Shown here: piece by piece, positions 2,850-63,690 of the stretch
Layout: every line of letters starts with the position of its first letter
Position numbering within the stretch: position 1 is the stretch's first letter
Assembly (NCBI GenBank): GCA_947179485.1
Contig: OX359249.1
Location: 6,944,001 to 7,008,000, forward strand
Direction of reading: 5' to 3'
From: Allacma fusca
Taxonomy: Eukaryota > Arthropoda > Collembola > Symphypleona > Sminthuridae
Length of the DNA stretch: 64,000 nt
The notes under the pieces: generated by a model
Told to the model about the DNA's origin: nothing
Database searches by the model: none
Seen by the model: the letters and a program-made list of their open reading frames with translations, nothing else
Made by a program: the position numbers and the translations under genes

Positions 2850-2854
2850 TGCAG

Positions 2855-12179: not shown

Positions 12180-13950
12180 CCCCAACCGAGTCCGTACTCA
12201 TTCAATACAGTCGCACAACATTAGGGTGAAAGTATAAGGGAAGAAATAAATTATAATAGTACCTGGAGACCGCAAAAATCAAAAGGGATGAAAAATACGA
12301 AAAATAAATGCAGGAGAAAGTGGTGAAAGTAGAGAAAGTAGTGAAAGCAATTGGAAATTGGCGTATAAGATTATATAATTTGAAATTCAAAAATTTCAAA
12401 TTTCAAAACCGGAAGAAAAAACACGCATTAGTAATTGCTGTGTAATGAGGGGGGTAACGGCAAATAAATCCGATAAAATTCAAAACACAAAAAAATTAAT
12501 TAAAACCATAGACTAAGATTTCTCTGAAAAGCTGAAAACAAGAAAATAGGAGAAAGCAGTGAAAGCAAACAACTGTGGAACATAAGTATTTAGTGATAAA
12601 AAAGAAAGTATAGAAAAATGAGAAATTAAAGCGTTGAATTTTATTCTCTTCCTGCCCAAGTGTCAATTGGGAGCTGGAAATTATACGAAAAGAACGGATT
12701 GAGACCAGTGTAAATATTCCCAAGAATTAATATCACATGCATGAGCATATCAATATAGCCAAATTGTCCCGTCCCCCGTCTTATTAGCCTTCCCTGAATC
12801 CCTGCATCTCGCTTTGACTGCAATCCTTCTGAACTTCCCAAAATAATGAAAAAATATTTCCCCCAGCAAATATAAAGTAATATGCAATCTCACCTGTCAG
12901 CCTCCAACACAAACCGTTAACAGAGATTTTTTAATATGAAATGACAGGGAGTAGAAAAGATATTTACAGTGGGCTGTCACTATAAGATACCCACCTAAAA
13001 TTGCACTTTCTCAATATACGCAAAACGAATTTGGGCAGGTTCCCAATCCCATAATGTAAAATCCTAATAAGAAAACTTTAGTTGTAATATTTGCTATTAT
13101 TTGGTGCCTTCTAAGAACAAAAAATTATCTATTGCTGTAACGGGTCTTCCAGAAAAATGATTTAAATTGAAAATCGCACCCAGAAGGGTGAATAAACGAT
13201 TCCGGAAAATTGCTCACGTCTCAATGCATTTTCTTCTTTGTGTATTAAAATTTAAGTCACAGTTTGCCATTGGGAAAATGTTCTTAGAAGGATAGATAGG
13301 TCCTTTGAAATCAGAATATTAGAAATCCTTGTAAAAGAGAAATGCCACTATTGGAACAAATATAAATATTTGAAAACTTTCCAACTTGGATTAATAGAAA
13401 TGTATCCGGGTTTAAAAACAGCAATTTTATTTCTTTTAAGGAGGCCTCTATGAAGAATGGGTACTGCAATGAATTTCATGGGATCGCAGGTTTATGAACT
13501 AAAATGCCCTCAGGTGAGGTTACGGACTGGTAGTTGAAGAGAGGCAATCAAAAGGCACTCACTCTCAGCTTCAATTTGCTTGCAAACCCATGGAGTGGAG
13601 CTCATCCTTAGAGCATATATGCAGGTAGTTAAGTCACTCCAAGTCCATTGGTTCCCCATTTGATTGTGGTTCTGGACCCCCTTCTATGATCAATTCTCTG
13701 CTTCACTCAAATACTCAAAAATAGACGGGGTCTGGGGAAAGTTGGGTAGGAACAATTGGCTGTTTGCTGAAATTCATTTACCAAGTGTATCTAATATGAT
13801 AGCTTGAGCTGGGGAGAAAATACTCAGAAGAAGCCCTCTGCAGTGTACTATTGCTCTTAAGACTGGGTTTATGAAATTATAGATGACTTCCAGCGATATG
13901 TTTGGAGAGCTTGCATCCAGGTTGCTCCGATCCGTTTCCTCTGCCGCACT
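12180..13950. other. Start of the GAGAAAGT/GTGAAAGT motif field; no gene
   Basis: I see no gene. The first GTGAAAGT lies at 12226-12233. A tight cluster follows with motif starts at 12314, 12323, 12332 and 12341, exactly 9 bp apart and alternating GAG, GTG, GAG, GTG. Another 9-bp pair is near 12552 (GAGAAAGCA then GTGAAAGCA). Confidence 0.6.
12967..12995 (+). repeat. TIR-like motif with preceding TA
   Basis: TA then CAGTGGGCTGTCACTATAAG and ATACCCACC. It is among the leftmost clear members of the dispersed CAGT...TATAA family; a more degenerate candidate begins at about 12208 (CAGTCGCACAAC). Confidence 0.5.
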
Positions 13951-13959
13951 TTCTCCCGA

Positions 13960-15020
13960 GTTAATAACTGGTCTTCATATGAAATGCTTCTTCAGAAATA
14001 CCTTTGAAACTTTGAGCAGGAATATTTAATTCAAACGTTATACAAAACGTTTCTCTAGATAGCACGATCGTCTTTGACTCTCTGTCCAGGACTTTCTCCG
14101 AAAGAGGTAATTCTTCCTTAATAAGGATCTGTTCCAACAAATGTACCGAAAGCCAGGAACAATCTCTAGACCTCAATTTAATGGACTGTGTCGAAGAACT
14201 TCCCTTTTTGGGAACATTCTGGAGGGTTCCGGAGGTTAGCACATGATTAGGAACTTTCCTACGATTTTTCTTTGCGCATGTTCTGGTACTCTGGTTAGTG
14301 CTTCCTGGAGTGTAGAATCATTAAGTTTCTCGGAAATTTCTCTATCCAGAGCTGACACCAGGTATTGTATGTCAGGACGCTCCAAGCATCTATTTTGAAA
14401 TGTCAGGGACTTTCTCCATTACATTTGCTTGAACACTAACCAGAACTTTCTCTTGAACTGCGCCCACGAATTTGTCCAGGACATTCTTGGGAACCATCTC
14501 CTGAACTTTCTCCACTTTTCCCGAAAAACTTTCTCCAGACTTTCTCCCAATGTTATTTTTGAACGATTTTGAAACCTTTTCTTGATCTTACTCAAAATGC
14601 GCTTCTGAAAATATTTCGGGAATTCCTCTGAAGGTTCTAAAGAACTGTTACATTTTTTACAGGAATTCCCTACGAGTTTGTGAAGGAACTATGATCTTCA
14701 GAATTCTCCAGAACTCTTTGCTCAGGTTTCCACAGAACTTTGTAGTATCTCTTGTGGAACAATCCAGAGAAATTTTTCATTGATCTAGACTTTTTCCAAA
14801 TCTTTGACAGTCTCAAATATTTGTCCGTGATTACTTTCACTAATCAAACATTCACTTTCACCGTTCTATCCTCCTCAAAAATAATTGAACTACTTATGGA
14901 TCAAACTTATCCCTGACGTTTTCCATGAGAATCAAGCTGGAGAGCTTACCCTACATAATTTACAAAAATTCTTAAACTTTTCCTATTAATCTCTTTTAAA
15001 TATTTTCCAAAACTTTCTCC
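13960..15020. repeat. Diffuse degenerate repeat of ACTTTCTCC / GGAACTTTC
   Basis: The segments GGAACTTTC, ACTTTCTCC and CCAGAACTTTCTC recur at irregular spacings of roughly 20-60 bp (for example near 14088, 14409, 14445, 14506-14547 and 15010). This is the complementary strand of GGAGAAAGT. No constant unit length is visible. A 93-codon minus-strand frame at 13961-14242 is a by-product. Confidence 0.5.
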
Positions 15021-17661
15021 AACACTGACTCCAAGGTTGAATCCCGACTCTCGTCTGCAGTTTCATCCTAAAAATCCTAAAATAAATTTACACTTTTGGT
15101 TGAGACTTTCACTCCCTGAATTTTTATTTTTTGTAATTTGATTTTAAATATTTTTTGTCTCTTCCTTTTCTGTCTGGGAAATTCCTCGGATGGGAAAAAC
15201 GCTGGGAATTTCGAAAGCCCTCCCAATTTCCTAAATGGGTATTTCAATTTAAATGTTTTAAAGGAGGTTCTCAGGTAGTAAAACTCTAAAAGCTCTCCCC
15301 CTCGTAGACATTAAAAAGCGTAAAGGGAATTGCAAAAAGGGCTGTCAGTTTTACTTTCTCTTTGCTTGTCTCCCCTAAATAAAGTGTCTCTTGAAAGAAA
15401 TTATTCCCGAGTAAGCCTACAGAGCACTCTAACTATGAGAGGATCTCTTTGAAGAGTACCTTCCCTGCAGGGAGGGGAAAATTGGAGCACATTTACAGCA
15501 ATGTTAATTCCTCTCCTTACAAGATCCGGAAGTTTTACTCCTTCAGGGGTCCTCTTCTCAGAGGTTCTCTTACATTGAGGATTTGCTCTCAAGAAACATT
15601 TTCTCACAAGGGATTCCTTACATCCCCACGTCTCTGATATCTTGCTGGGATGAGCCAAGAAAGTAATGATTTTGTAAAGGAGTCATTATACGTTTATTTA
15701 AAATTAATTTGTTCCTACGTAAACAGTGGTCTTAAATTAGCATTGCGGTACATGGGAATGTCTACAGGCAGTCGGTTCTGTGGACAAGGCTCCTTTACAG
15801 GGGATCGCTTCACAGGATCCTCTCACTACAGGAGCCTCCCTTGTAAGAACGTTGTATCCACAACATATTTAAAGACCCAGGGGTTAATCACAATGCTAGT
15901 AATAATATTGATGCTAATAGGAGCACTTGCTGACAGCAGTCAGAATTATGATCCTTGAAGAAGATACTGGTGTAATATTTGTGGATGCTTCAAAAACAAT
16001 GTCCTTATCCCTGAGTGCATTACAGGGGGAGTTGACTGTAGGGAAGAAATGTGTCATAACGTGTTTGATTACATGGAGCCCTGTCTTTTGGGAGGACGTA
16101 ATACATGCAGACATGGATTTCTCATTTGGGCTTACATCATCCCATCTCTGCCATACCGTACCTTCCTGGGCCTGTTTTCCCATTAGAATAACTTGTGGAG
16201 CGTCTGCTAATGGAATCGCAAGCTTGCATTCATCACTTACGGCCCTTCTCCTCCTCACCTTAATTACCTACAAGGTCTTGGCCCAACTCACTAAAAGCTT
16301 CTGTTTTCCCACAACTCCCCTCTCGCCAGGCTTTCCCTCCACTCTCTCATATGGGGGGGGGGGAGGAATCCCAAGGAAAATTGTGTTTTCTCAGGGATTA
16401 CTTTCCCACCTCTCCGCTCGTCTTCCCTGAAGAGATTTCCGGGACGCATCTTGGCAATCACCAACTTTTTCTTATTCACATTTTTCTCATATCGCCCGAT
16501 TTTTAATACTTTCACCTTGTTTTCTCCTTGGAATTTCCCCCTACATTTTGTTTCACACTCTGATGAATGCATGCCATTCCAAAGTCTCATTTCTCTCTTA
16601 TTTGGGCCTTCAAAATTTGAAATGGATTTTTCCGGAAAATGTGACAGCTTTATTGGAGGGGAGAAAATTGTCCCCGTTTCCGACACCTGTAAATAAATTC
16701 GATATGCAGGGTGAGAATCATAATGACATAGGATGCGGGTATGGAGAGAAAATTCTACAAGATTTCCCTGGATTTAGAAATCCTCCTGTTTGTCTCCCCT
16801 TCAACTCATACATTTCTTGAAATAGCAAAATTGTATTTTCTTTTTTTAAAATGGACGGGCGGTTCGAATCGATAATTTATTCTTATTCTACTTGACAGTA
16901 GCTTTCAAACGAGTACCTGGTTGCCTATGTTTAGCTCAAGTCTTAACTTGCCCCAATTATTTGTTGTAAATTCAGAATTTTCAAAATTCTTTTGCCTTTC
17001 CTAGCTTTTAGAAGAGTTGCTAATTACACATGCTTGATAAGATGTTTCCATCCCAAAAAAATCTCTTGCAATGTTTGGAAAAATAATTGAAATTACAATA
17101 AATTACTACAGACCATAAATGTGAGAATACACTTTTTGTACGCTCTCCGTCTGCTCCCACAGCGTAACTCCGACTGTCGAAAGTGTCCCTGGAAAAGCTG
17201 ACAAATTTTGTGATCCCGGAAATGTACGGAAAAGTCGTAATGGTTTTCCAGACACTGAGTAAGCACACGCCCACAATAACTGCAACCCCTTTGGCAAGTA
17301 AAATAATGAAATCCCCACACAGTGCACACTCGCTATGACAGGAGCCCTCAAAAAGATGCAAAGCCTAACTTTTGTAGTTGAATGATCTTTCTAACAGAGC
17401 ACATTAAACGCTCAGAGCAATTATTGACAACGGCTCCTAAAGTTATTGTGTTGACACCAAAAAGTCAAGAGAGCCTTTATAGCTACTGGAAACTCCACAT
17501 GCTCCGGCTGGTGAGTCAATGCTAACAAATGGGAACAGTTGAGAAAACCAGGAGCCCTAAATGTTACACGATACTGGGGCCAGATCAGAGCTAATTAAAT
17601 TCCGGTCCCGTAATTCATTTCATCTGGACTTGAGCTCTAGGACTTTCACAAATATAACCTA

Positions 17662-18168: not shown

Positions 18169-18197
18169 CAGTCCACTCTCCCTATGAAAATCCCCCT
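18169..18197 (+). repeat. TIR-like motif with preceding TA
   Basis: TA then CAGTCCACTCTCCCTATGAA followed by a C-rich run (AATCCCCCT). Same orientation as the copy at 17662, with which it shares CAGTCCACT. Confidence 0.5.
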
Positions 18198-28400: not shown

Positions 28401-28660
28401 GTGCTCAGGACAATGTGCCTCAACGAGTTGCGGACATTGCTTTCTTTTTGTTACGTGGAGCACGTCTTCAGGAGGTCCTCTCCTCTCAATGGGAGGATTT
28501 TTTTCCACCAAACGGTTTCTTCAGCTCAGGAGGGATCCCACTTTCCGAACCACTCTCCCTATAAGGTACCCCCTTATACAAATATTTCCCCTATAAATCC
28601 AAAAATATTTCCGCACATTCCGCTCCTCTAGGATGCTAATTGCTTTCTCCTATGAAGAGC
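22406..28660. other. Gene-less stretch
   Basis: I see no gene, only isolated GAGAAAGT/GTGAAAGT motifs on both strands (near 22586, 23334, 24142, 24889, 25048, 25077, 26561, 26691) and a C homopolymer near 23623-23636. A weak two-copy repeat of about 82 bp may exist at 26250-26385 (TTTCATGAATTTTGGG versus TTTCATAAATTTGGGG). Confidence 0.5.
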
Positions 28661-28670
28661 TTCATAGAGT

Positions 28671-28694
28671 AGACTCTCGTTATAAGGGCCTCCC
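28671..28694 (+). repeat. TIR-like motif
   Basis: AGACTCTCGTTATAAGGGCC then TCCC. A strong member of the dispersed family. Reversed members follow near 28792 (TATAGAGACTTTG) and at 28911. Confidence 0.6.
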
Positions 28695-28910
28695 TGGGAA
28701 CAGAATTTGTTAAAAAATCCCGCCAGCTCAGGAACGAACTAGGAAATTGTAAATACAAATAATAGAGACCCAGCTTGTAGAACGGGGTGCGTTATATAGA
28801 GACTTTGCTACGTTCGTATAGTCTGAAAATTAACGTGGGGATAGGGAGGAATATTGAGAGGGATTTTTGTCCCTAGAGTGAAAATAGTGTTGGAAGGGTG
28901 ATGGTTATAA

Positions 28911-28934
28911 CGAGGGGTCGACGTATAAGTGAAA
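28911..28934 (-). repeat. TIR-like motif, reversed
   Basis: ATGGTTATAACGAGGGGTCG then ACG. It faces the forward copy at 28671 across about 240 bp. Confidence 0.5.
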
Positions 28935-29212: not shown

Positions 29213-29450
29213 TCCTTATAACCAGGTTGTTCCGCCTAGTTTACACAGATCACGGGAGCGAGAAAATTTCTCCACTATAACGAGACTTGATGATACGAGG
29301 CTTGCATTATAAAGAGACTTTGATTGTAACGAGACTTCCCTTGTAACGAGACCTCCCTCATAACGAGACTTCTTTTATGAAGAAATCTCCTTATAACGAA
29401 CATCCCTTGTAATGGACGTCCCCTTGAACCAGATTGAACTTAAAAATTGT
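29213..29450. repeat. Tandem array of the TATAACGAGACT motif
   Basis: At least nine successive degenerate units of about 20-25 bp are built from ATAACGAGACTTCCCTTGTA: CTATAACGAGACTTG, TGATACGAGGCTTG, TATAAAGAGACTTTG, TGTAACGAGACTTCC, TGTAACGAGACCTCC, CATAACGAGACTTC, TTATAACGAACATCC, TGTAATGGACGTCC. A transposon-end motif appears to have been amplified into a satellite. Confidence 0.75.
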
Positions 29451-32400
29451 AACAGACTCATTTTTAAAGTATCCGACCCTAGCCCAGAGAAATGACTACA
29501 GGTAAGCAAGAATTCCCTTGCAAGAAGTAGTCCCTTGTAACGAGCTTCGACTGTAATGTTATCCCAGATATTTACCCACGCTCCGCTCTCCTGTTCGTGT
29601 TGATCCACCTCCTGCTTTTAGTATTCCAAAAGAACCAGCTCATGCCCGCACACTGGACACATAACATATTAACTGGGTCTGAACCCCAGCCTGAATCCTA
29701 AGACAGAACGAATCCGAGCCGAACAAACACTCGTCTAATATTTCCCTCTCCTGAATAACAAAACAGTCTTCTCCACATCCGAGCTCCACTTGATTTCCAA
29801 TATCCAGCAGTCAGTCCGAAAACTCACCCAACAGACTAATGTAAACAAGGAGGAAACAACCTCATTGCATTTCTCTATGTCAGCGCCCTAAATTAAGAGA
29901 CAACTCCTCTGTTTTGTAATACGAACCCATTCTCCAGGATTCGGTTCCTATTATTGACCCACAGTCCAAACCATATGGCAGGCCCAAAAAATCAAATCAG
30001 TAGCAAATATCCCTACAATAAACACCCAAACGAGCAAATATCCCCACAGTACATTCTCCCCAACAAAGACCACCCTAAATTTAGCATTGGTCCAACACTA
30101 CAAAAAAACTTTCTCTTCAGGACCTGAAACCAAAATATTCTGTCCCATTTGAATTTACCCCAGGATTAATATTTCTTATAAAAGCAGAAACTCTCTAAAT
30201 GACCGAGCCTCGGGTCTACACAAAAAATGTTCTCTCATTTGACCCATTATTAATTTTTCTGGTTTCAATAGCATTCACAATAAATTCTCGATATGACGGA
30301 GCCCCTTAAAAGAAAAATGTTTCATAAAATATTGAAAAGATTTCTGTTCACAATTTTATTTTTCTTACCTAAAAGTGTGTCCATTTTTGTCACTGTACAA
30401 ATAAAACATGTACTTACATCAAGGGGATTCCTTAAAGCAAGATTTGACTGGAAAAACTGGAAATTACCAGCAGAAATAATCCAAGGCTGGGCTTTCTCTT
30501 GAGACCTCAATTTTTCTTAACTTTCGAATGGGACTTTCTCCTTGAAGGTGAAAATCTTTGAATCGACTGCAAATATAAATTGACTATTGATTCTTTTCCC
30601 TCAAGACAGAATTTCTTTTATCCCACTCTCTCCCATCTCAATGATTGTAACACGCTCAAATTGAGAAAGAGCAGTGAACTGAGGAAAGAAATTTTTTACT
30701 TTCTCCAATTCAAAAAAATCTTTGTACTATTTCAAATTATTTGCCAAAAATGCTTTCTCCAGTTAGCCCCATTTCAGTTTCCATTATTTCCTGGAGGTGA
30801 CCACGGGGCAATTGACAACAGTCAGGGTCTGAGATGAAAGCAAAGAAAATTGGAGAAAGTCAACTTTTAAAATTATTAAAGATTGGATTTTTTCCAGACA
30901 ATTTAATTTTCCAGGTAATAGTGTCTAATGCAAGGAAACCGGTCCTTAGCATTTAATCACTGTGTTTAAGCAAAATATATTTGAGGAATCCAAACACAAA
31001 AAATTAACACCTGGCAATAACTGGAAATATAACAATTTTTTTCCTTAAGTCAAAATACGGTTGCACATGGAGTGAGTCACTTGTAAAAAAAATTGTCACT
31101 GTATTCTTCAATTGAGATTTCCTTTTTCCCTGAGTTGAGGCAGTAATGCTAAAAGCGTATATTTGAGCAGGACCTTCAATTACTGGGGAAACCACAGAAG
31201 GAGCGTGTTCAGTGAGTACAGTGTGATTCAAGTTACACAAGACGAGGATGGAATTTATACTCGGAAATGGAACTGGTCTCGAGATGGGGGAAAATTAAAT
31301 GTAACTCATGCGGAAAGGTTCACAACCACATGGAGAGATATTGCCTAGAACATTTCCTCTATTAGTGTGTACAAGGTGCTAGAAAACCTCTCAACCCTTC
31401 CTTTTCCCATTGTCACGAGAAATGATAAAATTCAAGTCTCAGTGGTTAAAAAAATATCCCTCCAGATTTTTTGACATTTATTTCATCCCACTACTCCAAA
31501 ACCCTCGAAGAAGCAGAATCAAGCAAAATTCATGGAACAAACTCCGGGTTTTTTGACAAACTATAAATTAGTAGCATTGTGAAAAATTCTAATTTTTCGA
31601 AGAAATTAGCAATTTCCGGAACAAGAATTTCTCACAAAATTGACTTAATTTTTCCCCAAAATTTTATTACAGGATTTAAATCTAAAAATCTCATTTTCAA
31701 AAAACCCCTCCAATTTTTTTGACTACTCCCAATTTCAGGGTTCATAACTACAGCATTGAAATAAATTTTGAAAAATCAAAATCAAAAATATGTTGTGGCA
31801 TTTTCATTTGCCAGAGTGTGAAAATCTCCGCTTGAGCGTATTTTGAGTTATAGGGACATTTAAAATGTTGTTCCTTGCTGGGGTGGCCCATTGGATAGAG
31901 TGACTGTGTCCCAGGATGTTGGAGTACAGAGTGAGGACGGATCAATTAAATTAGAAAAGTCAGGAGAGTCTAGTGACGTCAAGGTTGTCAGACCGGGAAA
32001 AAACTAGGGAACCTGATCATAATTGATTTTAAGGAAAGGATCGGACGATGGATGAGCAAAACACTGGAGAAAGTTGTATAAAAAATAGTGAGAAGATAGT
32101 CCGCCCTTTATACAGGAGGATTCGAAAGTGGGAAAAAATGTAATTCTAATAATTATTTATAGTTTGGATTCAATAATTTAAACCTGAGGCTAATGGAAAT
32201 ATGCCCTTATTTTTTTCCCAATAGAGAAAATTTCTGTGTGCTATTTCTCAAGGAGAAGAATTAATTTTGAGGTTAACCGGAGCCTCTTCCAATATTTCCG
32301 ATACATCAAAAAAGTACATAGCGCGTACTAAAGAGATTTCAAATGTAGAAGCCTGTCATAATGTAGCATGTCATTGTTTTGACCTTATATAGAAAAAAAG

Positions 32401-33240: not shown

Positions 33241-33244
33241 TTCG

Positions 33245-37639: not shown

Positions 37640-38809
37640 GATCGCTTCCTTGTGGGTATAAAATTCAAGGTTTTTATGCCCCAGATATTTTTTAACATTC
37701 TAAACATTTAAAATGTACCTCGATCCTCCACCTTGCAAGGTAGATGACATGATACACTTGTATATGCTAATATACACAATAAAATATTGTGTATTTTCCT
37801 TATAACATACTCCATAAAATGAGAATTTGCTCCAGGGTGGCAAAAATATCTGGACCCCTTACCTTTGACTGCAATAAAAAAATTCTACTTTCGAAGAAAC
37901 ACTGTAATGGAAGGTTCCATTTTGAGAATTTGGGGGGCCGTTCCAATGAGAGTGGACTGTGTCCTGGAATCCCGAGAGTACCTGAACTACGCTAACCTCC
38001 ATTTAATTCCCTTCCCATGTTTACTTTTACCATTACCTGCGATAATGGTTTTGAATTGGGCTTCGCCATCCCATGAATTTTTAAAGGTTCTAAATTGTCA
38101 AATATATTTCACTCATTGGGCACATGTGTCCTGACAGTAGGTTCTTATGGGCAGTCGTCAGGCACGGCCTGGATTACAAATTATGCTCGTACAAGACGGC
38201 CGTTATAGCGAGTTTCTCTTGTACATACTCGTATAAGATGGAAAATTTACATTGGATTCAACGGGTAGTATTCTCAATATTTTCAACGTATAACGACGTT
38301 CTCTCGTTGGTATGTATGGGGGCCGCTGTAATGAGACTTCAATAAATAAACTTCTGTAAAGAGAAAAATTTACAGAGTCGGGAAGAGAAATTTGCTGGAA
38401 ATATTATGGGGAATATTTTAAGGGTTTTTGCAATCTATTATAGGAAGAGTACACTGTATGGGAAAATTACAGGAGTAAATTTTCCCTGCAATCCACAACT
38501 GTCAAAAGTCAGTTAAATGATTCATTCCGAGCACCTTCTCATGTGGGCTGAGGTGAGCTCTAAAAGTAATTAATTTCCGAGGTTCATTTATTATCTTGAA
38601 CATCATCTCCTGCCCCAGAGGAACAACTTACTCCGAATTCCATCCTTAACTCTCCATCCCCTAAACAATGATACAATCAGCCCCTCCAATTTTCAAAGGC
38701 TCTAAATTATTTAAACTGTAATTAGTTGAAGAGCTCAATTTGGAGCGCTGAAAATACTAAAACTTTTCATGTTATTTCCTAATTCTATTTAGCTCACTCA
38801 AACATTCAG
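37640..38809. other. Gene-less stretch with one TIR-like motif
   Basis: I see no gene. A reversed TIR-like motif at 38198-38216 (GGCCGTTATAGCGAGTTTC) faces a degenerate forward one near 38136. A further one near 38318-38340 reads GGCCGCTGTAATGAGACTTC. Confidence 0.5.
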
Positions 38810-40146: not shown

Positions 40147-40971
40147 TTGGTAGCCATGGTAGCTTGGCAGAACGTGCTCAAAAAATTTTGCCCCCCTAGA
40201 ATAGGTCCCTTACTCAGGGGTCCGTTTTAACAAAATTCCCTGTATACATACAACTTGAGCCAGGAGTGTTTTTCAATGTTGCCATCAGCTCTTGTGCTAT
40301 TGACAGGTTGCACACACACACATACATACAGATGCATTTGTGAGCATTGGTACACTGCCCTAGCACTATAAGAGACTCCCTTAAAAGAACACGCGATCTC
40401 TATAAAGACAAAAATATTTTCCAATTTTTTTTCTAACAAAGTGATTTTTTTTTATTTATTTAAGTAATTTACACTGTAAGAGTTGTCCAATACTTTCCTA
40501 GGGTATCCTCCATAGCGAGCGCGCATTGCATTTGTATGTGTGAGTGTCAACAGAAAAACTTGCTCCAAATTAAGTTACTCAAGCCCTGGGTCATTTGTGT
40601 GCGCCAGAAGTGTGTTGTGTGTTTGAGTGTATGTGTGTCTCTGTGTTTGTGTGTATGGGAAAGAGAAAGCTGGTGGGGCAGGTTGAAATTATGAGAGACC
40701 TGGAAATTCCATTAGATTAAATGCGGATCATGTTCCAACAAAACTTGCAACAACCTCTGGAAAATCCAGCTGCTCACAAAAACTTGTCACACACATCCCA
40801 CTCTTCTCAAAAGGGATTTTGCCAAAGTATTTATTTAAAGCTCAAATCCAAATTATAGTTTCCAATCAGACTGTCATTATACACATGGCACCCTCATCTC
40901 ACAGACTCCATATCTGAAACCCATTTTTTATCCAACCAAAAATATTCCAAAGAATTTGGGCTTATTGGGAA

Positions 40972-40997: not shown

Positions 40998-41434
40998 TAA
41001 AAAACTCTGAAAAAAAAACTCTGTATAAAAAATACTGAAACTAATACTGAATTATTTCAAGATAAATTTCCCTCCTTGAAGGAGGCTGTTACACGGAGAG
41101 TCCCCTGTAAAAAAAGGGAATTTCTCCAAAACCCGCCGCAGTCATTAAATCATCTGCAGGAGGATTTCCCCAAAATATTGTCTTTCCTTGCCCAAGACTT
41201 TCCCCTCATTTCCTTAGACACACGCATTCCCCTCATTTGTTGGGAGCGCTCTGGGACTGCGTTTCCTTGAACTTATGGTTCCCCACGAATGGCTAATAAA
41301 TTGGTATAAGGAGTGAGTAGCCACTGTAGCACAGGCTGTCACTGAATGAGACACGAGCCTGGGACCATCAAACGACTTACGGAGACATTCGCCTTTGCAT
41401 ACACAAATAATGACTCTTGGACAGAGACAGCTTA

Positions 41435-41609
41435 CAGTCAGACCTCCTTATAGCGTCCGTCCCCCCACAGGACATTCACACACCTCTCTACAAAAGCTCC
41501 CTCAAATTCCCTTGCCTCACCGACATAACCACTTTCTCCTGAGAGTATCTATGGCTACTGTATAGGGAAAGGGGGGAAGTTAATTGGCCGTTATAGAAAA
41601 GTTTCCCTG
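41435..41609. mobile_element. MITE-like element, 175 bp, TA flanks
   Basis: It starts CAGTCAGACCTCCTTATAGC directly after TA (41433-41434) and ends ...GGCCGTTATAGAAAAGTTTC CCTG directly before TA (41610-41611). The ends are imperfect inverted repeats (about 15 of the first 24 positions by eye). TA duplication and CAG...CTG ends fit pogo/Tc1-mariner-type non-autonomous elements. There is no coding capacity. Confidence 0.5.
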
Positions 41610-41611
41610 TA

Positions 41612-48260: not shown

Positions 48261-49266
48261 TAACAAGAAATGAGCCCCGTATTTATATGTAGGTATAGCT
48301 ATAAAGATACTATTTTTGCATTAATGTAAAGTGTACCACTATTAAACAAGGTTTACACAATTGTTACCATTGCATTCCCCATTTTGAAGCGTACCACTAA
48401 AAAATGTCCCCTCCATAAATATAGACTCCACACTGAAAATCCAAAGTCCTATCCCAGGAACAGTGGATACATATAGGGTCGTCCAATGTAAAGGGGTTTG
48501 ACACCATACAAAATAACTGACTCACCCTCTATTTTCCTTCCAGCTCCATTGAAAATTTTGTTTACGGCCGAGTGTCTTCGGGAAGCCAGAGTTGTAATGT
48601 GCAGCTGGAGTTATTGCTGGGACCGTGCGAGCTGAAATAATGAGGAGGTAGTGAGTCCCTGTAGTAAAAACGTCCGGTAATTATTACCAAGTGCGAACGT
48701 TCATTCTGAAAACAGTCTCGGAATTGGGAAATATTTACGACTCCTGAAGCGGACCTCCTAGCACGATGCAAATAAGGGAGGAACGTCGCTCCGAAAAAAA
48801 TTGTTTGGTTTCATCGATGAGGAATAAATGAAAGGTGTCCACATTCTTGATGACTTGTCATATGCTTTTCGAGATTGAGCCATTGCCAGAGTTGGGCCGC
48901 CCATAAAATACTCAACGTACGTTTTGTGGGAAGGGGAGTCTCATCCCGTCAGTTGTTCTTCGAAGGAAGAAGAAGACGTCAGTTTCCTTCGTCTTTTATC
49001 TCTCCACTCATATTTTCTCTCGTTATTTTCTTCTCGAAGCTAAAAAAAAACCGGCATAAGATGTCCCTAGTGAATTTATCTCCTATATTTTATTCACAAG
49101 TGATTTCCCCCTAAAATCTTCTCCCAGTGACTTGGCATTCTCCCTGCGTCCATGAAGCGTCCGTGTCGCGTGCGATTCCGAATTGAAAACGTAAAAACCT
49201 TTTGTTTCATTCTATCAAGCGCCTTATCAGTTACCCTTCAATTATTTTAAATGTAGCAGACCTGTA
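48261..49266. other. Gene-less stretch
   Basis: I see no gene and no array. Short frames have no recognisable domain. Confidence 0.5.
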
Positions 49267-49375
49267 CAGTGAAAGCTCGTTATAAGGGACGTCCTTTCCT
49301 CCCAAATTTTTACCCCAGACTAATCCCACAGAAACATTTTTTTCTTTGGAACTTCCTTACAACGAGAGCTCACTG
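49267..49375. mobile_element. MITE-like inverted pair, about 109 bp
   Basis: The left end is CAGTGAAAGCTCGTTATAAG then GGACGTCC; the right end, reversed, is CAGTGAGCTCTCGTTGTAAG then GAAGTTCC. The 28-bp ends agree at 21 positions with no gap. TA precedes the left end. On the right, CACTG is followed by CTTACTGTA, so either the end was eroded or a second CTG-TA end 7 bp further out was used. There is no coding capacity. Confidence 0.6.
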
Positions 49376-49878
49376 CTTACTGTAACCCTAAATGTAGTAC
49401 GATGCGTCCGAGATATTTTTTTTTCCCCGAAGAATTTTATTCCTACATCGGAATTTTTTTAACATTTTCCCCGAAATGAAGCAAGCCTCCTTATAAATAC
49501 TTTTATTTTTGTACAAGTTCCCCATTAAAAAAATCTAGCATTGACTCTCATTGGGACATGCTTATATGGATAAAAAATTATTATAGTTAAAAATGATTTT
49601 AAAATGTGACGTGGGACGAAACTGTGCTCAAATATTTTTCTCTCATCGAATCCTTCGAGCCTTTGAGAGAAGAGTAAAGTTTGTTGTACAGACAGTCCAC
49701 TCAATTTTACTCTAAAATCCTGTAGCTCAAAGGGCACTCCTCAAATGATCTGTACACACATCCATATTTGATGTTATCGATGGGAATTTTGGGAAAAGTG
49801 AAAGGCATCATTCCGATGAGAATTGACAGTTGATCCGAAGTGACCGAGCTGATTTGGTTTCTTCCCAGAAGTTACATT

Positions 49879-50010
49879 CAGTCAAGTCTGGATATAACGG
49901 CCCCCTTAAAAGGCGTACTACAATGTACCCTGCAAATGTACCCTACAATGCATGTAAATAGTCCCCCTTGAACAAGATCATAGAAGAATCTCCCTATAAC
50001 GGACCCCCCT
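49879..50010 (+). repeat. Two TIR-like motifs in direct orientation
   Basis: CAGTCAAGTCTGGATATAAC then GGCCCCC at 49879, and TCTCCCTATAACGGACCCCC at about 49989, roughly 105 bp apart on the same strand. Confidence 0.6.
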
Positions 50011-50657
50011 GTAAAAATTTCCTCTGACCTGACAACAGGGCTGCAAACTGTTTAAATTTTCTGGGAATTTTTGTCCAGGGATGCTCTCCTAGGCAGAGTG
50101 CCCTGTAAGGCCAGACGCACAGAAAAAATTGTAAGGGCAAGGGAATTTAATGCTGGATGTTTGTCCAAATGAAAGGATATTTGATTTCCTCGGGGAGTGT
50201 AAACATGACTTCACTCCGGCCCTATGGTTCCTTCAAAGCAATCCCTTTTAAATCACTCGAATGCAATACAACCATAAATAAATATGTGCATGGAGCTTCT
50301 TCCCCATTAAACTCAAGTGCGGGTTATTGAGGCCCAGGCGGAGTGTAGACTCAATGAGACGCTTGTCCCTCGCGACTTTGTCTATGTAAAGGACATAAAT
50401 CCCCACATGAGAAAATTAACATTCCAGTTTATAAACGAGATTGTGTCGAAATTTTTTTCGGGGAAAAAAACCTCCAATTTAAAGGAGCTCCAAGACAGAC
50501 CCGTTCCCGATACACACCTATATGCATTTATGTGTATATGTATGTGTATATGTGTATATACGTGTGTAGGGTCTCTGGAGGAAGGAAGTTCAATATTTTT
50601 GTAGAGTAGACGGGAGTGCGTTTTTTCCTATTGAGTCACGACTCCTATTATTACAGA

Positions 50658-50800
50658 GGGGACCCTTATAGCGAGACTTGAGTGTGGGCGCTCTGACATG
50701 GGAAAATATGGGAATCGGGGTAGACGGGATTATGTTGATATTTACTTGGGCGAGTAAGACCATAAGGCTGTTAGAGGGGACCGTTATAGCGAGACTCAGC
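50658..50800 (-). repeat. Two reversed TIR-like motifs in direct orientation
   Basis: AGGGGACCCTTATAGCGAGA then CTTGAG at about 50656, and AGGGGACCGTTATAGCGAGA then CTCAG at about 50774. They are nearly identical and about 118 bp apart, which suggests a duplicated unit. Confidence 0.7.
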
Positions 50801-51016
50801 ATATTTTCCTAAAGTACTTCTCCTCGGACTTACAACCCGTGCTTTTGTATTTACGGGATTATTGTCAGTAATGAGCTTTCGATAATCAATACTTTACAAT
50901 AATCCTATTATAGTCTATTTCCAGCGTCAGTTCTCTTTATAGTGGACACCGTCTGAGGATATTTTCTCTCTTAGGGAAAATATTTGCCAATTTTTTGAGG
51001 ATATATTCAAAATTTC

Positions 51017-51195
51017 GAGCCTCCATATAACGGCTGTCTCAAACACAATAGTCTCTTTATAGCGGTTGTCTCCAGAAAAGTAGTCTCTTTACAACGGCTG
51101 TCTTGAAAACAGTAGTCTCTTTATAACGGCTGTTTCCAAAAGAGCAGTCTCGTTATAACGGCTCTCTCGAAAACATCCAATGACTAACCCCGTTA
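51017..51195. repeat. 32-bp tandem array of the TIR-like motif
   Basis: Units TAGTCTCTTTATAGCGGTTG, TAGTCTCTTTACAACGGCTG, TAGTCTCTTTATAACGGCTG and CAGTCTCGTTATAACGGCTC are each followed by about 12 bp (TCTCCAGAAAAG and variants), giving a 32-bp period. Flanking half-units lie at 51017 and 51188. This is the clearest case of a TIR-like sequence turned into a satellite. Confidence 0.85.
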
Positions 51196-51684: not shown

Positions 51685-52096
51685 GAGACGGAGCCACTCA
51701 TTTCCCCAGACGTTGTGGCTTTTCCCCATCCGTCCAGAAGTGCAATCCAATTAGATGGGAAATATATGAGCTGATGATCACAAGTGTGTGGAGTGAGCCG
51801 ACGTTATAATGGACACTCTGCGCTCATACAAATTTCTCCCTGACAATGGAAGCCTCTTATGAGAAGGGAAGTAGCACTGCGTTAACTACAATTTTTGGAG
51901 TCAAATTTCCGAATGGGAAGAGAACACCTGTCTCTTGTAATAGGATTTACTGTACAGTGTTGTGCAGGTATCAGGGACCCCCTTCTAGTAGTAATAAGGG
52001 GATTTTGAGGGAAGGAATAAAAATCGAGCATTTACGTCCTTGAGATTTTTCTTCATATCAGTGTCAGAGTCAAAGTTGAGTATTTTTCCTGAGGAG

Positions 52097-52296
52097 TGTT
52101 ATAAGAGGACTTCACTGTAGCCTGGACTCGTTTGAGAGAAAATTTGGACGCTATAAGGAGGTTCTAGTGTATTAAATGCAAATGTTAAAAATATTGTCAG
52201 CTGTCCCATGTCTAGTGGCTGAGTAGAAAAAAGCGGGAATTTTAAAAGGAGAAGGCTGTTATATTGGGGCTGTCCGTTATAGGGAGACTTTACTGT
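52097..52296 (-). repeat. Three reversed TIR-like motifs
   Basis: GTTATAAGAGGACTTCACTG-TA at 52098, GACGCTATAAGGAGGTTCTAG at about 52148, and GTCCGTTATAGGGAGACTTT-ACTG at about 52272. The first ends CACTG-TA, a complete element-end signature. Confidence 0.6.
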
Positions 52297-54979: not shown

Positions 54980-54984
54980 GAATT

Positions 54985-56040: not shown

Positions 56041-57412
56041 GTGAAACTTCAAATGAAGTTTCCTTCTAGCGTTTCTATAACGCTTCTGCCTGAAAATGAT
56101 GCATATTTTTAAAAAGTGTGAATAAAAATATTTCAAATTAATTTTTTGAAAAGCTGAAAGTAAAGTATTGCAAAACTTCTCATTAAATTTTCCAACCTTC
56201 TGTAGTAAATTTGTACACCAGTACGGATGTATTTTTTTAAATTTCCATGTAAATTCATGTAAAACTAGAAACTATAAATATTCCTTAATATGAGGATTGA
56301 GTTTTCTTTGATCTCTCCTGTCTATCAAATATTTCCTCTGTCTTGATGGAAATGTTTCGAGGGCCCCAGTACATTGTGTAATAAGACCAAAACGTCTCTG
56401 ACATTTTTGACTCTCTGAGAGAAAAGTAACAGACGCTGAAGATCTTTTCCCTCTCTTTTCTCATTTGTGACAGAAGACAAAGAATTGGTGGAAATTCCTT
56501 ATGAAATTGCAATCAATTTGGATTTGATTCCTGGCAGATTCCATAATATACTCGAGTAGTTCACAAGACCAGCTGTGAAGGGGAACCTTGAGGCACGGAA
56601 TTAATTAAAACATGTCAGGCCTCCTTTTTCAACCTGTCTCTCAATTTTTATGATTGATGGCATCCATTCTGTTTCCCTCCTCTTCTCATCCCCATCTTCT
56701 CACTTCCTTCTTCCGAACTCCCACCATCCAAATTTTATTATTATACAGTCCCCTCTCCTCACAACATCCACCCCCTCAAATTCACAAACTTTTCACATCA
56801 ACTTATCCCAAAAATTGAGAATCGTTCAGACCCTACAACCTCCAAATACTTTGGTCCCATTTAGCACCCCCTCATACAACGTGTGACCGTTATAACGAGA
56901 GCTGACTTCATATCTAATACACTTAGCACAAGATCCTACTCTAACAATAAGAGTCACCTGAATCAATATACAGAATGTCATTCATGACTTCCAAAGGAGA
57001 AAATTTCATTTTCCCAACGTCTTCTTCCCAGAACTTCGTCATTGCACTTTTCGCAAGTTCAGCTTCAAAAGGAGCAATATTTTACTTGGAATTTAATTTC
57101 TGTTCAAAAATTTTTCCTAGCAAAATATTTTTATTCAATTTATTAATCCACTAAGTAGGAATTTGTTCGAATATTTCTGAACCCGTATATGTGATGCAGG
57201 TTCAAGGTGGGAGGGCCGCTGTAACGAGGCCTGGTACGAGATCTGTTACGAGACCTGTATACCTTTTATATCTGCAATTTATGAAATTTAGGTTTGGGGT
57301 AAATTAGGGAAGTTTGAATTTTTTTTTTAGTGAGATTTTTTTCGCGGGACTGTTATAACGATACTTTTTATGGTGGCCCAATAAATGTATAACGGGATTT
57401 AAAAATGTGATT
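56041..57412. other. No gene; several TIR-like motifs
   Basis: I see no reliable gene. 56650-56880 is C/A-rich. A forward motif lies at 56746 (TA-CAGTCCCCTCTCCTCACA), and reversed ones at 56885 (GACCGTTATAACGAGAGCTG), 57213 (GGGCCGCTGTAACGAGGCCT) and 57347 (GGGACTGTTATAACGATACT). The pair 56746/56885 is inward-facing over about 160 bp. Confidence 0.5.
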
Positions 57413-58105: not shown

Positions 58106-59844
58106 TACTCTCCAAAAGAAACGTATGTATCCTACATAAGTTAGCGTATGGTCTGGGTTATGAAGGGTGACTGTACCGGAAGCCTTGAACTAGTGCAGTG
58201 CTAAAAGCAGCCAGTAATTATTTACACTTTTGGGAAAATAATAGAAAAAAATCCCAGGAACAAGACCCACTTATTGGAGTTGGGTTTGGGAAGGGAAATT
58301 AGGCCCAGACTGTTTACATTCAAGAAAGGACTTCCCATAAAAGTCATAATCAATTCTTCGTTTACGTAAATATATTCCCAAACTGCTCCTCACTTACAGT
58401 ACAAGCGACCATCCGGTGAGCCAGACAACTTTCGCCATTACAAAATAAATCAATACAGTGCTCCGGACGGAACTTCTCATGCCGTGTCTTGTCCCGGCTA
58501 AAAATACAGTAAATCCTGCATATAACAGCGCCCTTGACAAAAATATTGGAAATACCTCGAAATATCTCTCTTATGAAAAACTTCAACATTGGGATAATCA
58601 AGGGTAAAAAAAATTCAAAATTTTCCAAAAGAGCAGCCGCTATAAAGAGACTTCGTATATTGGGAGATTTGTAGGTAATTAGCTGACATTTATTCATTTT
58701 GTGAGGAATGCTTGAAGAAGAAGGTGGGATGTGGGTGTTGTGTGAATGGTTGAAAAGGAGTTTGCCTTTTGGGAACTGATTGAATATGAGATTGAGATGC
58801 GGTGGGAATGACGTGGTTGATGTGGTGGTGATGAGATTGGCGATTACCTGTTGGGGCACATTTAAGGAACAAAGGCCAAGGGCTATGGAAAATGAAAATC
58901 AGAAACAGCTGCTCTCTTCAAAGTTTCACTTTGACATCAAAAGCTCACTTGAAAAAAGTTGATGGTGTGGAATCACTCTGGCATTTATTTCGGTTTGAAG
59001 TGAATGGAAGGCGGAAAGTACGGAAGATCATTTTAGGATGCTCAACCTCAGGGCTCTTTTACATTCTCTTAATTTGGAACATCAAATTATTGCTATTTTC
59101 TTTAAGGATCCTAATTCCCCGAATTTCCCGGGGTTCAAGAGTCTCAGTACAAAGGCCGAGGAAAAAGTATTATGAGTCTTGTTGGCAGCCTGTCTCTTCA
59201 GGGCTTAAAGTTAGGGGTTGTAAATCCCTTCAATTTACTTCCGTCCCCATTGGGCTTCCTGGGCAGGATTATTTTTATTTGTATAAGATCCTCCTATTAA
59301 CTAGATTTCTCAATTATGTTTTATGTACATGCAATTTCCTTGAAATATTTGATTGAAAGTGTCTGCGGAAATTTAGGGGCAATAGGGGTTTACTAAAAAG
59401 ACTGGGAAAATATTTAGACAAAGTTTCCAAAATATTTGGTAAATTATTTTCAACAAAGTTTTTAACAAAGTGGGAAGGAAATTATTTCAACGGAATTTTT
59501 AAGAACTTTGCAAGCTATACTTTTGGGGGAAATGTCCTGAGTGTAGAAATCTTTCGAGAGCAATTGCCATGAAATTTCCAACAAACTGATGAGCAAATAT
59601 TTGGAACAAAATTCGCAGAAATATAGGTGCCAAATTGGACTCATGGGTAGAATCGTTACTCTAGAATTTACAGTTTAAATTGAAAATAAATAGGCTTTAA
59701 ATCTGCCTCAGAAATTTACACTAAATTGAGCGCTAAAGTCGTGCCAACGGTTTGCATTCATTCAAATATACATAAGTTGGTCAAACACTTGGCACAAAAA
59801 TATTGAAATATCTACTGCAAACATACCTCAGAATCTACTAAAAC
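58106..59844. other. No convincing gene; one inverted pair of TIR-like motifs
   Basis: A forward motif follows TA at 58507 (CAGTAAATCCTGCATATAAC then AGCGCCC). A reversed one lies at 58633 (GCAGCCGCTATAAAGAGACT then TCG), giving a degenerate pair of about 150 bp. Open frames at 58362-58859 (minus) and 58892-59356 (plus) have no recognisable domain. A G/T-rich + strand run starts at about 58690. Confidence 0.5.
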
Positions 59845-60522: not shown

Positions 60523-60672
60523 CTAATATTTATAAAAAATTTGCCCTAATATTTATTAAAAATTTGCCCTAATATTTATTAAAAATTTGCCCTAATATTT
60601 ATTAAAAATTTGCCCTAATATTTATTAAAAATTTGCCCTAATATTTATTAAAAATTTGCCCTAATATTTATT
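60521..60672. repeat. 23-bp tandem repeat, six to seven copies
   Basis: Unit AATATTTATTAAAAATTTGC, CCT. It equals the 34-bp layout with about 11 bp (the CAATTTCACAA segment) removed. It directly abuts array B. Confidence 0.95.
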
Positions 60673-62175
60673 ACAAGATTTCATAAATTTTGTCCTAGAA
60701 TTGATTACAGATTTTCACAAAATTTGCCCTAGTCTTTATTACAAATTTGCAGAAAAACGTTTGCTCCAAAATTTTATACAGCATTTAAGGTCATGTTAGT
60801 TTCAAATATACCACAAACCCATATAAAAATACATGACAAATCTTACAAAATGATTTCCCCAATAGAATATTCCAGAACCATTTCCTAATAAACCTACGGG
60901 AAATATTTGTTCTAGAAATGTTCCCTAACTTCTGCGTATGATGAGCGTCTCGTAAACAAAAACGCATCCAAAAATCTGAGCCACTTGGAATCTTATCGCA
61001 AATGGATTTCCAGTGTTTACATCGTAAAATTTGTAAAAAAAAATCCTCCACCTCCAAACTAAAGCAAGTTTCCAAACACAAATACCAACATCCAACTTTT
61101 ACCTTGCGAGATTCCGAAAAAATGAATATTTGGTCCCAAAAAATTATACCTCCAGTAAAAATTCCCAACATGAGGCCAACTTTTGTTGCGCAAGGTTCAA
61201 TTTGAAACTCGCAAGAGCCAGACGTTACGAAAGTTGTATATCTTGGAAGGAGCGGAAAAAGAATAATTAAATGAAACTTTTTTTCTACGGAAGCAGACCT
61301 TAATGTATTTCTAAAGTTAACTTATCTCTCCGTCCTCAACAGCTTTCTCATTTCATGAAACATACCAACCCACAGAAAAAGCCCAGTTCCAGTCCGCTCC
61401 CCCTATTACAGCTCCCCTAAAAATCAAGAAAATTCCCAGTCAATTTCCAACCCAATTTATAACAACCAAAATTAAAATAATTACTCTAAACGACCCAACC
61501 CCCAAAATAACTTTGTCCCTCCTAAAATTTCCCCCTATTAGGACCACTGTAACTTTAACATGTAAATTTAACATACCTCAAAAAAATACTCCCAAAAATT
61601 GTAACCCGAGAATTGTAACCCAAGCTGTTCCCTTAAATAGCAAAAACGCATACCCCCGCAACCATGTAAATCCATAAAAACGAAGACACATTGTCCAGCA
61701 ATACGGGAATAAATTTTCCTTATTTTTCCTCACGAAAAATTTTGAAGCCCTCATAAATAATGGAGGAGTTTTGTGATACATTTTTTTGTAAAGTGAAGGT
61801 ACGAACGCCTCTCCTATCTCCACATGAATTCTCCGTTGACATCAAATCAAGGCCCATTTTTCACATAACGTCAAAGCCCGTCCCCAAATAAGAACGTGCT
61901 CTGTGGGTGTTTCACAAGGCCTAAAACTCCCAGACACAGCCCTGGTTAAGATGCTAAAAAGGAAACATCCTCAATAATAATTAATGGCCATACATCTCCA
62001 AAAACACAAAAAATCCCTAGAATTTCTAATGCCTCAGGCCCCCATCAAAATCAAACCTCTCTATAGTGGTCCAATTTACTTGCCCCATTTCCTCTGGATT
62101 ATTTTCCTATCAGAAAATAATTGGAAGCATCCTTATCTTCTCAAAATTTAATTTCCCTCCTTGGAGACGCTCCTA

Positions 62176-62200
62176 CAGTCGAGTCTCCTTATAGCGGCCA
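62176..62200 (+). repeat. TIR-like motif with preceding TA
   Basis: TA then CAGTCGAGTCTCCTTATAGC and GGCCA. A textbook member of the family. Confidence 0.65.
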
Positions 62201-62310
62201 CTCATATTTTATTACTATCCCTTATTTGTTTAACTACAGGGGCGGAAATTTGATACCCAATTTCCGCTTCATTTCTAAAATTAATATTCGTCTGGTAAAA
62301 GAAATTTTTT

Positions 62311-62333
62311 CAGTCTCGCTATTACGGCCTCCC
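62311..62333 (+). repeat. TIR-like motif
   Basis: CAGTCTCGCTATTACGGCCT then CCC. Same strand as 62176, about 135 bp on. Confidence 0.6.
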
Positions 62334-62813
62334 AATATGCCCGTGGCAGGGACAGTCCCTCCAATTTCCGTTTTGAGGAGAATATAATCATTTTTCAGTG
62401 TGAGGGAAAATTTGATTTTTTTTTTAAATTTTTAAAATTTCTGGTGTGATAGGGAAAATGTGAGAAATTCTTTTGACTTTCCTTCTCGCTTTGACACCTT
62501 AACCCGGACTGTGTGTGGGATATGAGGGAAAGGAGAGGGAAGTAAATGGGGGATTGTGACGGGTGTGAATGCTTAATGTGATTTTGTGAGCAGGGCCATG
62601 TTTCTTATTTCCATATGTCTTTTTCGTATTTGGGTGTCAAAAATAAATGGTTTCATTTTTCCTGAAATTCCTCCTCCTCTCCAGTCCCCTCCCATCTCCC
62701 TCTCCTTTATTTCCCAAGAATTGTTTAGTGGGCTGACAAGGCATCCCTGAGAGCTCTTATGGTTGTTATTCGGGCGTGATTTTAATTTTCTCACCAAAAG
62801 ATGTCTGAAGTCC

Positions 62814-62844
62814 CAATCGAGTCTCGCTATAACGGTCGCCCTCC
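62814..62844 (+). repeat. TIR-like motif
   Basis: CAATCGAGTCTCGCTATAAC then GGTCGCCCTCC. It differs from the 62176 copy mainly by A for G at the third base. Confidence 0.65.
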
Positions 62845-62932
62845 TAGAAATTTTTTTATAATCGAAAATATTTTAATTGGGTCCTATATGTACACTAATG
62901 ATACATTTCTGAAGGAGGGAGACAATGATGTA

Positions 62933-62954
62933 GTGCAGTCTCGATATAACGGTC
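62933..62954 (+). repeat. TIR-like motif
   Basis: GTGCAGTCTCGATATAACGG then TC. It lies 119 bp after the 62814 copy in the same orientation. A reversed relative (GGCCGTTGTAAAGAGACTGA) follows at 63068. Confidence 0.6.
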
Positions 62955-63663
62955 ATATTTTGGGCTGAGCTTATATTTTTTGTAAAAATATTTTTAAAAT
63001 TCTAGAATTTTTAAATTTTAGTTGAAGGAATTGGGTGGGAAAAACTGGAGGGAAATTTAATTTAAGAAGGCCGTTGTAAAGAGACTGAGTTTGAGAAATG
63101 AGGATGCTTTCCCCAGTGGATCTTGTTAGTATTTTTTATTATTATTGGGGTTTTTATTTTGATGCCGAGACTGTGTGCGTGTGTATAGGAGATGGGTATG
63201 TATGGATGAAATACGATATGCTAATGTGTGTAAGGTCATTATTATTGCGGGGAAAGGGATGGGAGAAAATACGGGTCCTTGCAACCTCAGCTCTTTCTCA
63301 ATGACTGTTTTAATTTTCTGGGATTTTTTTTCCCCCTTGGTTTTTTCTCCCGGGCTGTCTCAAAATTGTGCTGACTTTTCAGCATGAGGAGATAAGATGG
63401 TTGCGGTCCTTTTAATGGAGGGAATAAATTTGTTCTTGTGTGCTTTCCTGAGGGCTCTTGAGCAAGATCCGCTGGAAAGTAGGAGGAAAGTGGGTCTGTC
63501 TTTTACGGAGGACATTTGGACATTGAATAGCGGGAAGTGGCTCGTGTCTATAAAATTTGGGGAGCAAATATAAAATACATGGAGATACGGAACTTGTCTC
63601 TGACGTCATGTGCTCAACCTATCTTTGGATTTTTATCTTCTTTGTCTGACAGGCCGACGGAGG

Positions 63664-63690
63664 ACAGTCTCGATATAACGGACTGAGCTG
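63664..63690 (+). repeat. TIR-like motif
   Basis: ACAGTCTCGATATAACGGAC then TGAGCTG. It shares CAGTCTCGATATAACGG exactly with the copy at 62936. Confidence 0.65.

Follow-up and report, generated by a model that had tools for sequence, protein, structure and literature searches.

A degenerate motif recurs on both strands through most of a 64,000-nucleotide stretch of the genome of the collembolan Allacma fusca (contig OX359249.1, here C5; C5:6944001-7008000, hereafter the window), and we propose that it is very probably the binding site of pogo-superfamily transposases, present both as terminal inverted repeat (TIR) and as internal iteron, the block that carries it being a graveyard of decayed non-autonomous copies. 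The full form of the motif (TACAGT, then CTC, then nnTATAACGG) would be the TIR, the cut point of the enzyme, bordering the TA target site, and the shorter form, CTCnnTATAACGG without TACAGT, would be an internal iteron for the same DNA-binding domain. The block would consist of many non-autonomous copies of 150 to 190 bp together with longer ones holding internal iterons, mobilised in the past in trans by transposases encoded at other loci, landing close to and perhaps within each other before they decayed, while iterons inside some copies grew into ~118-bp units and short minisatellites. The pile-up of copies in the block may be due to low recombination or weak selection. A dense swarm that could be mistaken for regulatory or centromeric DNA would in this way be explained by pogo-type ends and internal binding sites.

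The motif was described by a 28-bp profile (TACAGTGnACTCTCGYTATAACGGnCCCC), iterated and trained on window positions 12001-64000, with a threshold chosen for about one match per shuffled window (10 shuffles). At this threshold the window holds 76 matches on both strands, the first at 12965. Independently of the profile, the AGTCTCGCTATAAC core with at most two mismatches occurs 16 times against 0.2 expected from dinucleotide shuffles, and CTCNNTATAACGG 12 times against once in the reversed sequence; the enrichment over shuffled sequence that the preliminary description had set in advance as a test was thus found with the core and with the profile alike. At 13 bits, positions 1-12000 hold no match (0/kb; best score 12.9, with a marginal match at 2248 of 12.78 bits under the last matrix and weak sites of the core only at 1688 and 2248), as had been said of the first 12 kb, while positions 12001-64000, the region used for training, hold 77 (1.48/kb) and the 60 kb beyond the window, outside the training set, hold 165 (2.75/kb). 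Twenty evenly placed control stretches, 50 kb in all, gave 3 matches (0.06/kb). Dozens of copies in both orientations had been reported, and 12 of the 13 coordinates named do score 17.9 to 33.1 bits, with 17662 sub-threshold at 9.9, a scoring that is partly circular in that the profile came from the same window. The exact 14-base core occurs only twice in the window, and the motif is a degenerate family, not dozens of near-exact copies. To write that it saturates the block was also somewhat strong: the 76 matches leave gaps of 3.5 to 7.5 kb (e.g., 18.6-24.6 and 41.7-49.3 kb).

Throughout the assembly (392,743,791 bp in 91 contigs), AGTCTCGCTATAAC with at most one mismatch gave 484 matches against 64 for the reversed control, and TCTCGTTATAACGGNC gave 93 against 0, with 20 of the 93 inside C5:6.957-7.240 Mb, where 0.07 would be expected if matches were uniform. 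Samples of 2 kb along C5 held 2, 1, and 1 matches at 5.0, 6.5, and 6.88 Mb, 17 at 7.11 Mb, 3 at 7.19 Mb, none at 7.26 and 7.40 Mb, and 3 weak ones at 8.0 Mb. C5 has other patches at 4.2, 5.0, and 5.7-5.95 Mb, as does C12 at 44.8-45.0 and 53.6 Mb, and match-bearing stretches on C1, C9, C10, and C12 hold 1.7 to 2.8 matches/kb, a figure biased by their being picked for holding a match. A scan of IMG/VR with ASTCTCGYTATAACGGNCCCCC gave no match.

Sites selected on their core alone (224 in 124 kb, the window and the next 60 kb) are of two kinds. The six letters before the core match TACAGT at five or six positions in 63 of the 224 sites, where 1.1 would be expected, at four in 29, and at three or fewer in 132. 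Sites of this last class lie inward of the five-to-six-letter ends, 51 inward against 10 outward within 300 bp, a bias reached by none of 2,000 strand flips. An exact TA start is present at 48 of the 63 end-like sites, which is weak evidence because these very letters help to define the class. Judging from these positions, most core sites look like internal transposase-binding iterons rather than ends, and this would account for many same-strand copies. The many solitary or same-strand copies remarked on earlier are indeed present, but 132 of the 224 core sites resemble internal iterons and not transposon ends. Some iterons are amplified, either into arrays with periods of 17, 31, 32, or 34 bp or into units of ~118 bp.

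The same end design borders transposase genes elsewhere in this genome. A genome-wide search for DDE_1 gave 160 matches, several per element, with none in the window among the matches listed (the best candidates scored), in keeping with the earlier view that the full-length parent lies outside it. Among the 30 DDE_1 loci fetched first, of ~3.4 kb each and often too short for both ends, 13 carry a profile match of at least 16 bits. In nine the match stands at the expected element end (L012, L013, L014, L017, L020, L023, L024, L026, and L034); in L025, L028, and L035 strong matches are in neighbouring sequence or ambiguous, and L010 has one of 17.4 bits. Extension of four loci yielded elements of 3361 bp (p1), 3384 bp (p2), 3169 bp (p3), and 2137 bp (p4), each with the motif at both ends, p4 being a shorter derivative that has its 5' iterons and 3' half in common with p1. 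A further element, L085, found through a TCTCGTTATAACGGNC match ~1 kb before a DDE_1 match, is 2381 bp long, starts TACAGTGAAATCTCGTTATAACGGACGCC, and has the top motif score among the sequences examined (34.0 bits). TA stands at both borders of p1 to p4, L035, and L085; p1 and p2, with 98.8% identity across 3388 bp, lie in different, unrelated flanks, and these border letters and flanks together point to a TA target-site duplication. Compared ungapped over their first 24 bases, the two ends are identical at 24 positions in p1, 21 in p3, 24 in L035, and 17 in L085.

Transposase domains accompany these ends. L014, which is part of p1, encodes CENP-B_N (9.8e-6), HTH_Tnp_Tc5 (1.3e-7), and DDE_1 (2.7e-27) in separate open reading frames (ORFs), all above cut-off. 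L085 encodes HTH_Tnp_Tc5 (1.3e-15) and DDE_1 (3e-16), with CENP-B_N at 15.9 bits, under the cut-off of 21.2, and the solved structure matched by its N-terminal part is that of the CENP-B DNA-binding domain (1hlv, E 1.8e-9); p3 (L024) has a DDE_1 match, the one domain examined there. We take the catalytic spacing to be DD30D, inside the DD29-36D range, with residues assigned by motif. The TIRs of pogo elements start with CAG. The likeness to pogo/Tigger-type ends that had been proposed in the preliminary description is borne out by these relatives, which are bounded on both sides by the motif and TA and encode a transposase of pogo type, and transposase-bearing elements with matching ends are present in the same genome, as it had anticipated. 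The one non-autonomous family that it assumed stands as to the non-autonomous copies and gives way, as to its unity, to several diverged relatives sharing one end design. A well-preserved 182-bp element with TACAGTCAACTCTCGCTATAAGGGAT ends, 27 of 28 letters alike (L028:113-294), lies near a DDE_1 element of another family.

The most interesting part is the coupling between end and iterons from family to family. Allowing up to one mismatch, sites resembling TATAAGAGC lie in p1 at 17, 32, 49, 103, 118, 135, and 179 on the 5' side, with inverted copies 48 and 64 before the 3' end. In p3 the sites resemble TATAACGTC and stand at 17, 49, 103, 118, 135, and 179, the inverted ones at 49 and 65. Those of L085, similar to TATAACGGA, are at 17, 32, 48, 112, 127, 144, and 200, with inverted ones at 49 and 65 (and 23), and L035, of core TATAGTGGY, has sites at 17, 32, 49, and 129, its inverted ones including 48 and 64. 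A comparison of p1 with p3 gives agreement at 33 of 37 shared iteron letters, at 36 of 103 spacer positions, and at 0 of 18 positions of the variable triplet. Counted in the first 260 and last 120 bp, the four families hold 7+3, 6+3, 4+6, and 7+5 sites of their own core, whereas the other twelve combinations of family and core hold 0 to 3 each, 7 in total, of which the similar GAGC, CGTC, and CGGA cores account, among themselves, for 6; shuffles give a mean of 0.1 to 0.2. Since the iterons carry their own family's core, we infer that the TIR and every iteron are recognised by a single DNA-binding domain. It is well supported, at the level of sequence, that the transposase would read a coordinated set of sites (the TIR, the 5' iterons, and at least two inverted 3' iterons) which keep their positions and switch together, and it is natural to infer that a new specificity would require the TIR and all iterons to change, binding itself being predicted. 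The better-preserved relatives form a natural series, with cores TATAAGAGC, TATAACGTC, TATAACGGA, and TATAGTGGY, in which some ten likely sites would have changed jointly with their transposase of CENP-B type, and the series makes the evolution of transposase specificity, and the way in which a CENP-B box might arise from transposon ends, directly testable.

Within the block, convergent start-to-start distances peak sharply at 120-160 bp, corresponding to elements of ~150-190 bp (Table 1). A partner of at least 13 bits, 100-235 bp away, stands in convergent orientation for 18 of 50 strong window sites and in divergent orientation for 5, and the paired copies expected earlier are seen, neighbours less than 200 bp apart comprising 12 convergent, 2 divergent, and 24 same-strand pairs. 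The window copies fit miniature inverted-repeat transposable elements (MITEs), being short, with ends inward and no coding sequence, and none of the 8 window ORFs of at least 150 aa has a transposase domain. The first 57 bp of L085 align with window positions 49265-49320 (75% identity, E 1.2e-4); of the first 27 letters 25 are the same, and those beyond match in part, so that the likeness is chiefly that of the TIR. The other window copies have only the end motif in common with the autonomous elements. Homology between whole interiors of window copies was rejected, a self-blastn giving almost only minisatellites (70 of the 79 pairs shown).

Several observations weigh against this model. No convergent partner of at least 10 bits was found for 29 of the 50 strong window sites, and a same-strand partner is present for 12 of the 50 on the inner side and 15 on the outer side. 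Strict TACAGT ends show barely any surplus of convergent pairs, which within 400 bp make up 7 of 26 pairs, or 17 of 43 once ends matching at four of six letters are included. The two ends agree at 13 to 21 of 28 letters in the candidate window copies (19 pairs, some overlapping) and at 9 to 21 of 28 in 58 candidate pairs of the whole 124 kb; because of this poor agreement many pairings are uncertain and individually candidates, and the argument is therefore carried by the statistics of the whole set. Divergent neighbours have a small peak at 140-180 bp that separate insertions leave unexplained. The fixed iteron positions of the full-length elements were not found in the spacing of block sites, where clear peaks stand only at 30-39 bp (9 sites, including short arrays) and 110-139 bp, and the variable letters of an end and its nearest inner iteron in the block agree about as often as in shuffled pairs (P 0.27; P 0.04 for the whole core). 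A block in which neither coupling nor fixed positions are detectable might be expected of old, mixed relics. Inside convergent copies, sequence in common with the ~118-bp units was not detectable (1 of 24 interiors reached 4 bits). Among the full-length elements, L035 and p1 share only the first three 5' positions and the two inverted 3' positions, with 14 of 37 iteron letters in agreement; the HTH/DDE ORF of L014 alone matched no solved structure, and the DNA examined covers only 31 DDE_1 loci, against 160 matches. As to inverted neighbours, a better-preserved run on C1 near 63.05 Mb, with ends alternating -> <- -> <- and long self-palindromes (77.5% over 480 bp, 69% over 776 bp), may illustrate how they could arise. 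Several motif matches between ~63.05 and 63.47 Mb of C1 repeat at an offset of 370,247 bp (e.g., 63050707 and 63420954), which suggests a large duplication.

Same-strand sites have a spacing peak of their own at 100-140 bp, and those ~118 bp apart share a repeat unit, weak but real. In held-out comparisons, 4 of 11 window spacers score at least 4 bits against 0 of 110 shuffles, and 4 of 29 against 1 of 290 in the reciprocal comparison, while spacer-only profiles trained on the other half give 26 and 9 matches against 0 and 1 in reversed sequence. Both spacing and spacer homology would suit a block that is primarily an old ~118-bp satellite holding the core by chance, with the transposon ends secondary. 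Such an origin is unlikely in view of the TACAGT terminus on 63 of the 224 sites, the position of TACAGT-less sites inward of ends, the identical end design around transposase genes elsewhere, and the convergent copies themselves, whose interiors lack the shared unit (the 1 of 24 given above). The short core arrays have periods of 17, 31, 32, and 34 bp, of which 15-17 and 32 bp are also iteron spacings in full-length elements. A 31-bp core array at C5 ~4.88 Mb (L004:2647-3011) has a TACACT end on its last unit, as if amplified inward. At 33320-33812, a 27-bp minisatellite (CACTTTCACCATGCAAATTCTCC), whose unit is 71% like the motif-bearing stretch at 18174, may be an older amplification of the core.

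The sites could also be binding boxes adopted by the host, CENP-B-like organisers of heterochromatin or centromeres, with the core under selection. Dense patches on five of six large contigs (C1, C5, C9, C10, and C12, a choice biased by its origin in match lists), the quasi-regular spacing of 100-165 bp regardless of orientation, and the match of the transposase DNA-binding part to the solved CENP-B domain are all consistent with this, as is the good core kept at 7 of the 9 spacer-only matches in the 60 kb beside the window. Of the 26 such matches in the window, by contrast, 16 are spacer relics without a good core, as neutral decay predicts, and selection on the core is unsupported. Moreover, C8 has no dense patch of TCTCGTTATAACGGNC matches (9 in all, with 9 kb between two of them), and C5 has several patches over 4.2-7.2 Mb and no single compact block. 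The canonical CENP-B box has the pattern TTCGNNNNANNCGGG; in this form it is not enriched in the window, with 3 matches at up to one mismatch against 5.9 expected. On balance, host boxes make a most improbable explanation of the block. That a host protein of pogo descent and CENP-B-like kind, marking heterochromatin or centromeres, now uses the block's surviving sites as its platform is a slightly less remote idea, though still very unlikely, and a centromere-like role of the block is possible but unsupported. Chance or compositional likeness of unrelated sequence, refuted by the shuffled and reversed controls (including 484 against 64, 7 against 0, and 93 against 0), has practically nothing in its favour.

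The placement of the elements in the pogo superfamily, as Tigger/pogoR-like without a choice between Tigger and pogoR, is supported by their sequences. In the parts available of the papers on these families (PMC9219625, PMC7386202, PMC7325037), Tigger elements are described as ~2.8 kb long, with TIRs of ~20 bp, TA duplications, and DD29-36D (PMC9219625). The elements here resemble Tigger/pogoR as reported in those parts in their TA target, short TIR, CENP-B_N/HTH_Tnp_Tc5/DDE_1 transposase with DD30D, and length (2.4 to 3.4 kb, against a reported range of 1018 to 4525 bp). They differ in that the p1, p3, and L085 families have six or seven direct 5' iterons (the TIR core included) and, at ~48 and 64 bp from the terminus, inverted 3' ones; these iterons occupy equal or similar positions across diverged families, and their variable letters shift along with the TIR. 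The available portions of the top-ranked literature, in which older pogo work is little covered, hold no description of positionally conserved, co-switching pogo iterons, and we claim no absence; the word "subterminal" has no occurrence in the available portion of PMC9219625, and among the papers listed by a literature word search for TATAACGG none is, by title, of the kind bar one on a bamboo mariner TIR.

Like pogo/Tigger-derived MITEs, the window copies are ~150-190 bp long, with inward ends, TA, and no coding sequence, and were presumably driven by distant transposases; unlike them, they are very old and diverged, often with internal iterons, and lie in runs with differing interiors. The CENP-B/CENP-B box system has in common with the block a homologous DNA-binding domain and many sites within one chromosomal block, and differs in the sequence of the site and in its centromeric role, which is unsupported here. 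As far as the available text of PMC3694981 goes, nematode satellites likewise keep a short CENP-B-box-like motif across divergent units, tied there to pogo-like transposition, but those are satellite arrays, whereas the motif here also forms the ends of identified transposase-bearing elements. Oyster arrays (PMC7492417, seen in part) are similarly tandem arrays dispersed inside non-autonomous mobile elements, the carriers there being Helentrons and here pogo-ended.

Table 1. Motif-bearing features of the window (positions count from its first letter; -> and <- give the orientation of sites).
Feature	Position	Strand	Remarks
Motif-dense block (TIR/iteron)	12965..63690	.	76 profile matches; runs on to about C5:7.2 Mb
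Candidate decayed non-autonomous element, ends inward	15811..16040	.	230 bp
Four sites, -> -> <- <-	28544..28925	.	121/120/113 bp apart; ~118-bp units inside
Short tandem array of core	29271..29412	-	17/34-bp period
Candidate decayed MITE-like element	29376..29555	.	180 bp
Candidate decayed MITE-like element	30276..30452	.	177 bp
Candidate decayed MITE-like element	37785..37961	.	177 bp
Three same-strand sites	38196..38458	-	123 and 112 bp apart; ~118-bp units
Candidate decayed MITE-like element	40351..40530	.	180 bp
Candidate decayed MITE-like element	41433..41611	.	179 bp; ends TACAGT..CTGTA
Short element aligning with L085 5' end	49265..49377	.	Chiefly TIR
Three sites, -> -> <- (two same-strand facing one opposite)	49877..50107	.	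231 bp
Same-strand pair	50659..50804	-	118 bp apart
Tandem array of core, AGTCTCTTTATAACGGCTG...	51026..51175	+	32-bp period, 4.7 copies
Candidate decayed MITE-like element	51953..52119	.	167 bp
Candidate decayed MITE-like element	56744..56910	.	167 bp
Candidate decayed MITE-like element	58505..58660	.	156 bp
Three same-strand sites	62046..62331	+	128 and 130 bp apart
Same-strand pair	62812..62956	+	117 bp apart; second site doubles as left end of 62929-63094
Candidate decayed MITE-like element	62929..63094	.	166 bp

Three other features of the window deserve mention. An imperfect palindrome at 54608-54985 has 93-nt arms that are 82% complementary and is made of ~32-bp repeats, one arm resembling 5715-5773 in inverted form. 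An 18-bp minisatellite at 57410-58104 (38.7 copies, 91% match) reads open on both strands, and the Pfam matches of its translation (e.g., Bactofilin, 1.4e-18) are probably an effect of the repeat. On the minus strand, 9504-11895 holds a pair of ORFs like those of a long interspersed nuclear element (LINE), interrupted by a gap of 200 N at 9650-9849; the endonuclease ORF matches Exo_endo_phos (E 9.7e-15), and its partner has, by eye, a zinc-knuckle-like CxxC..HxxxxC stretch.

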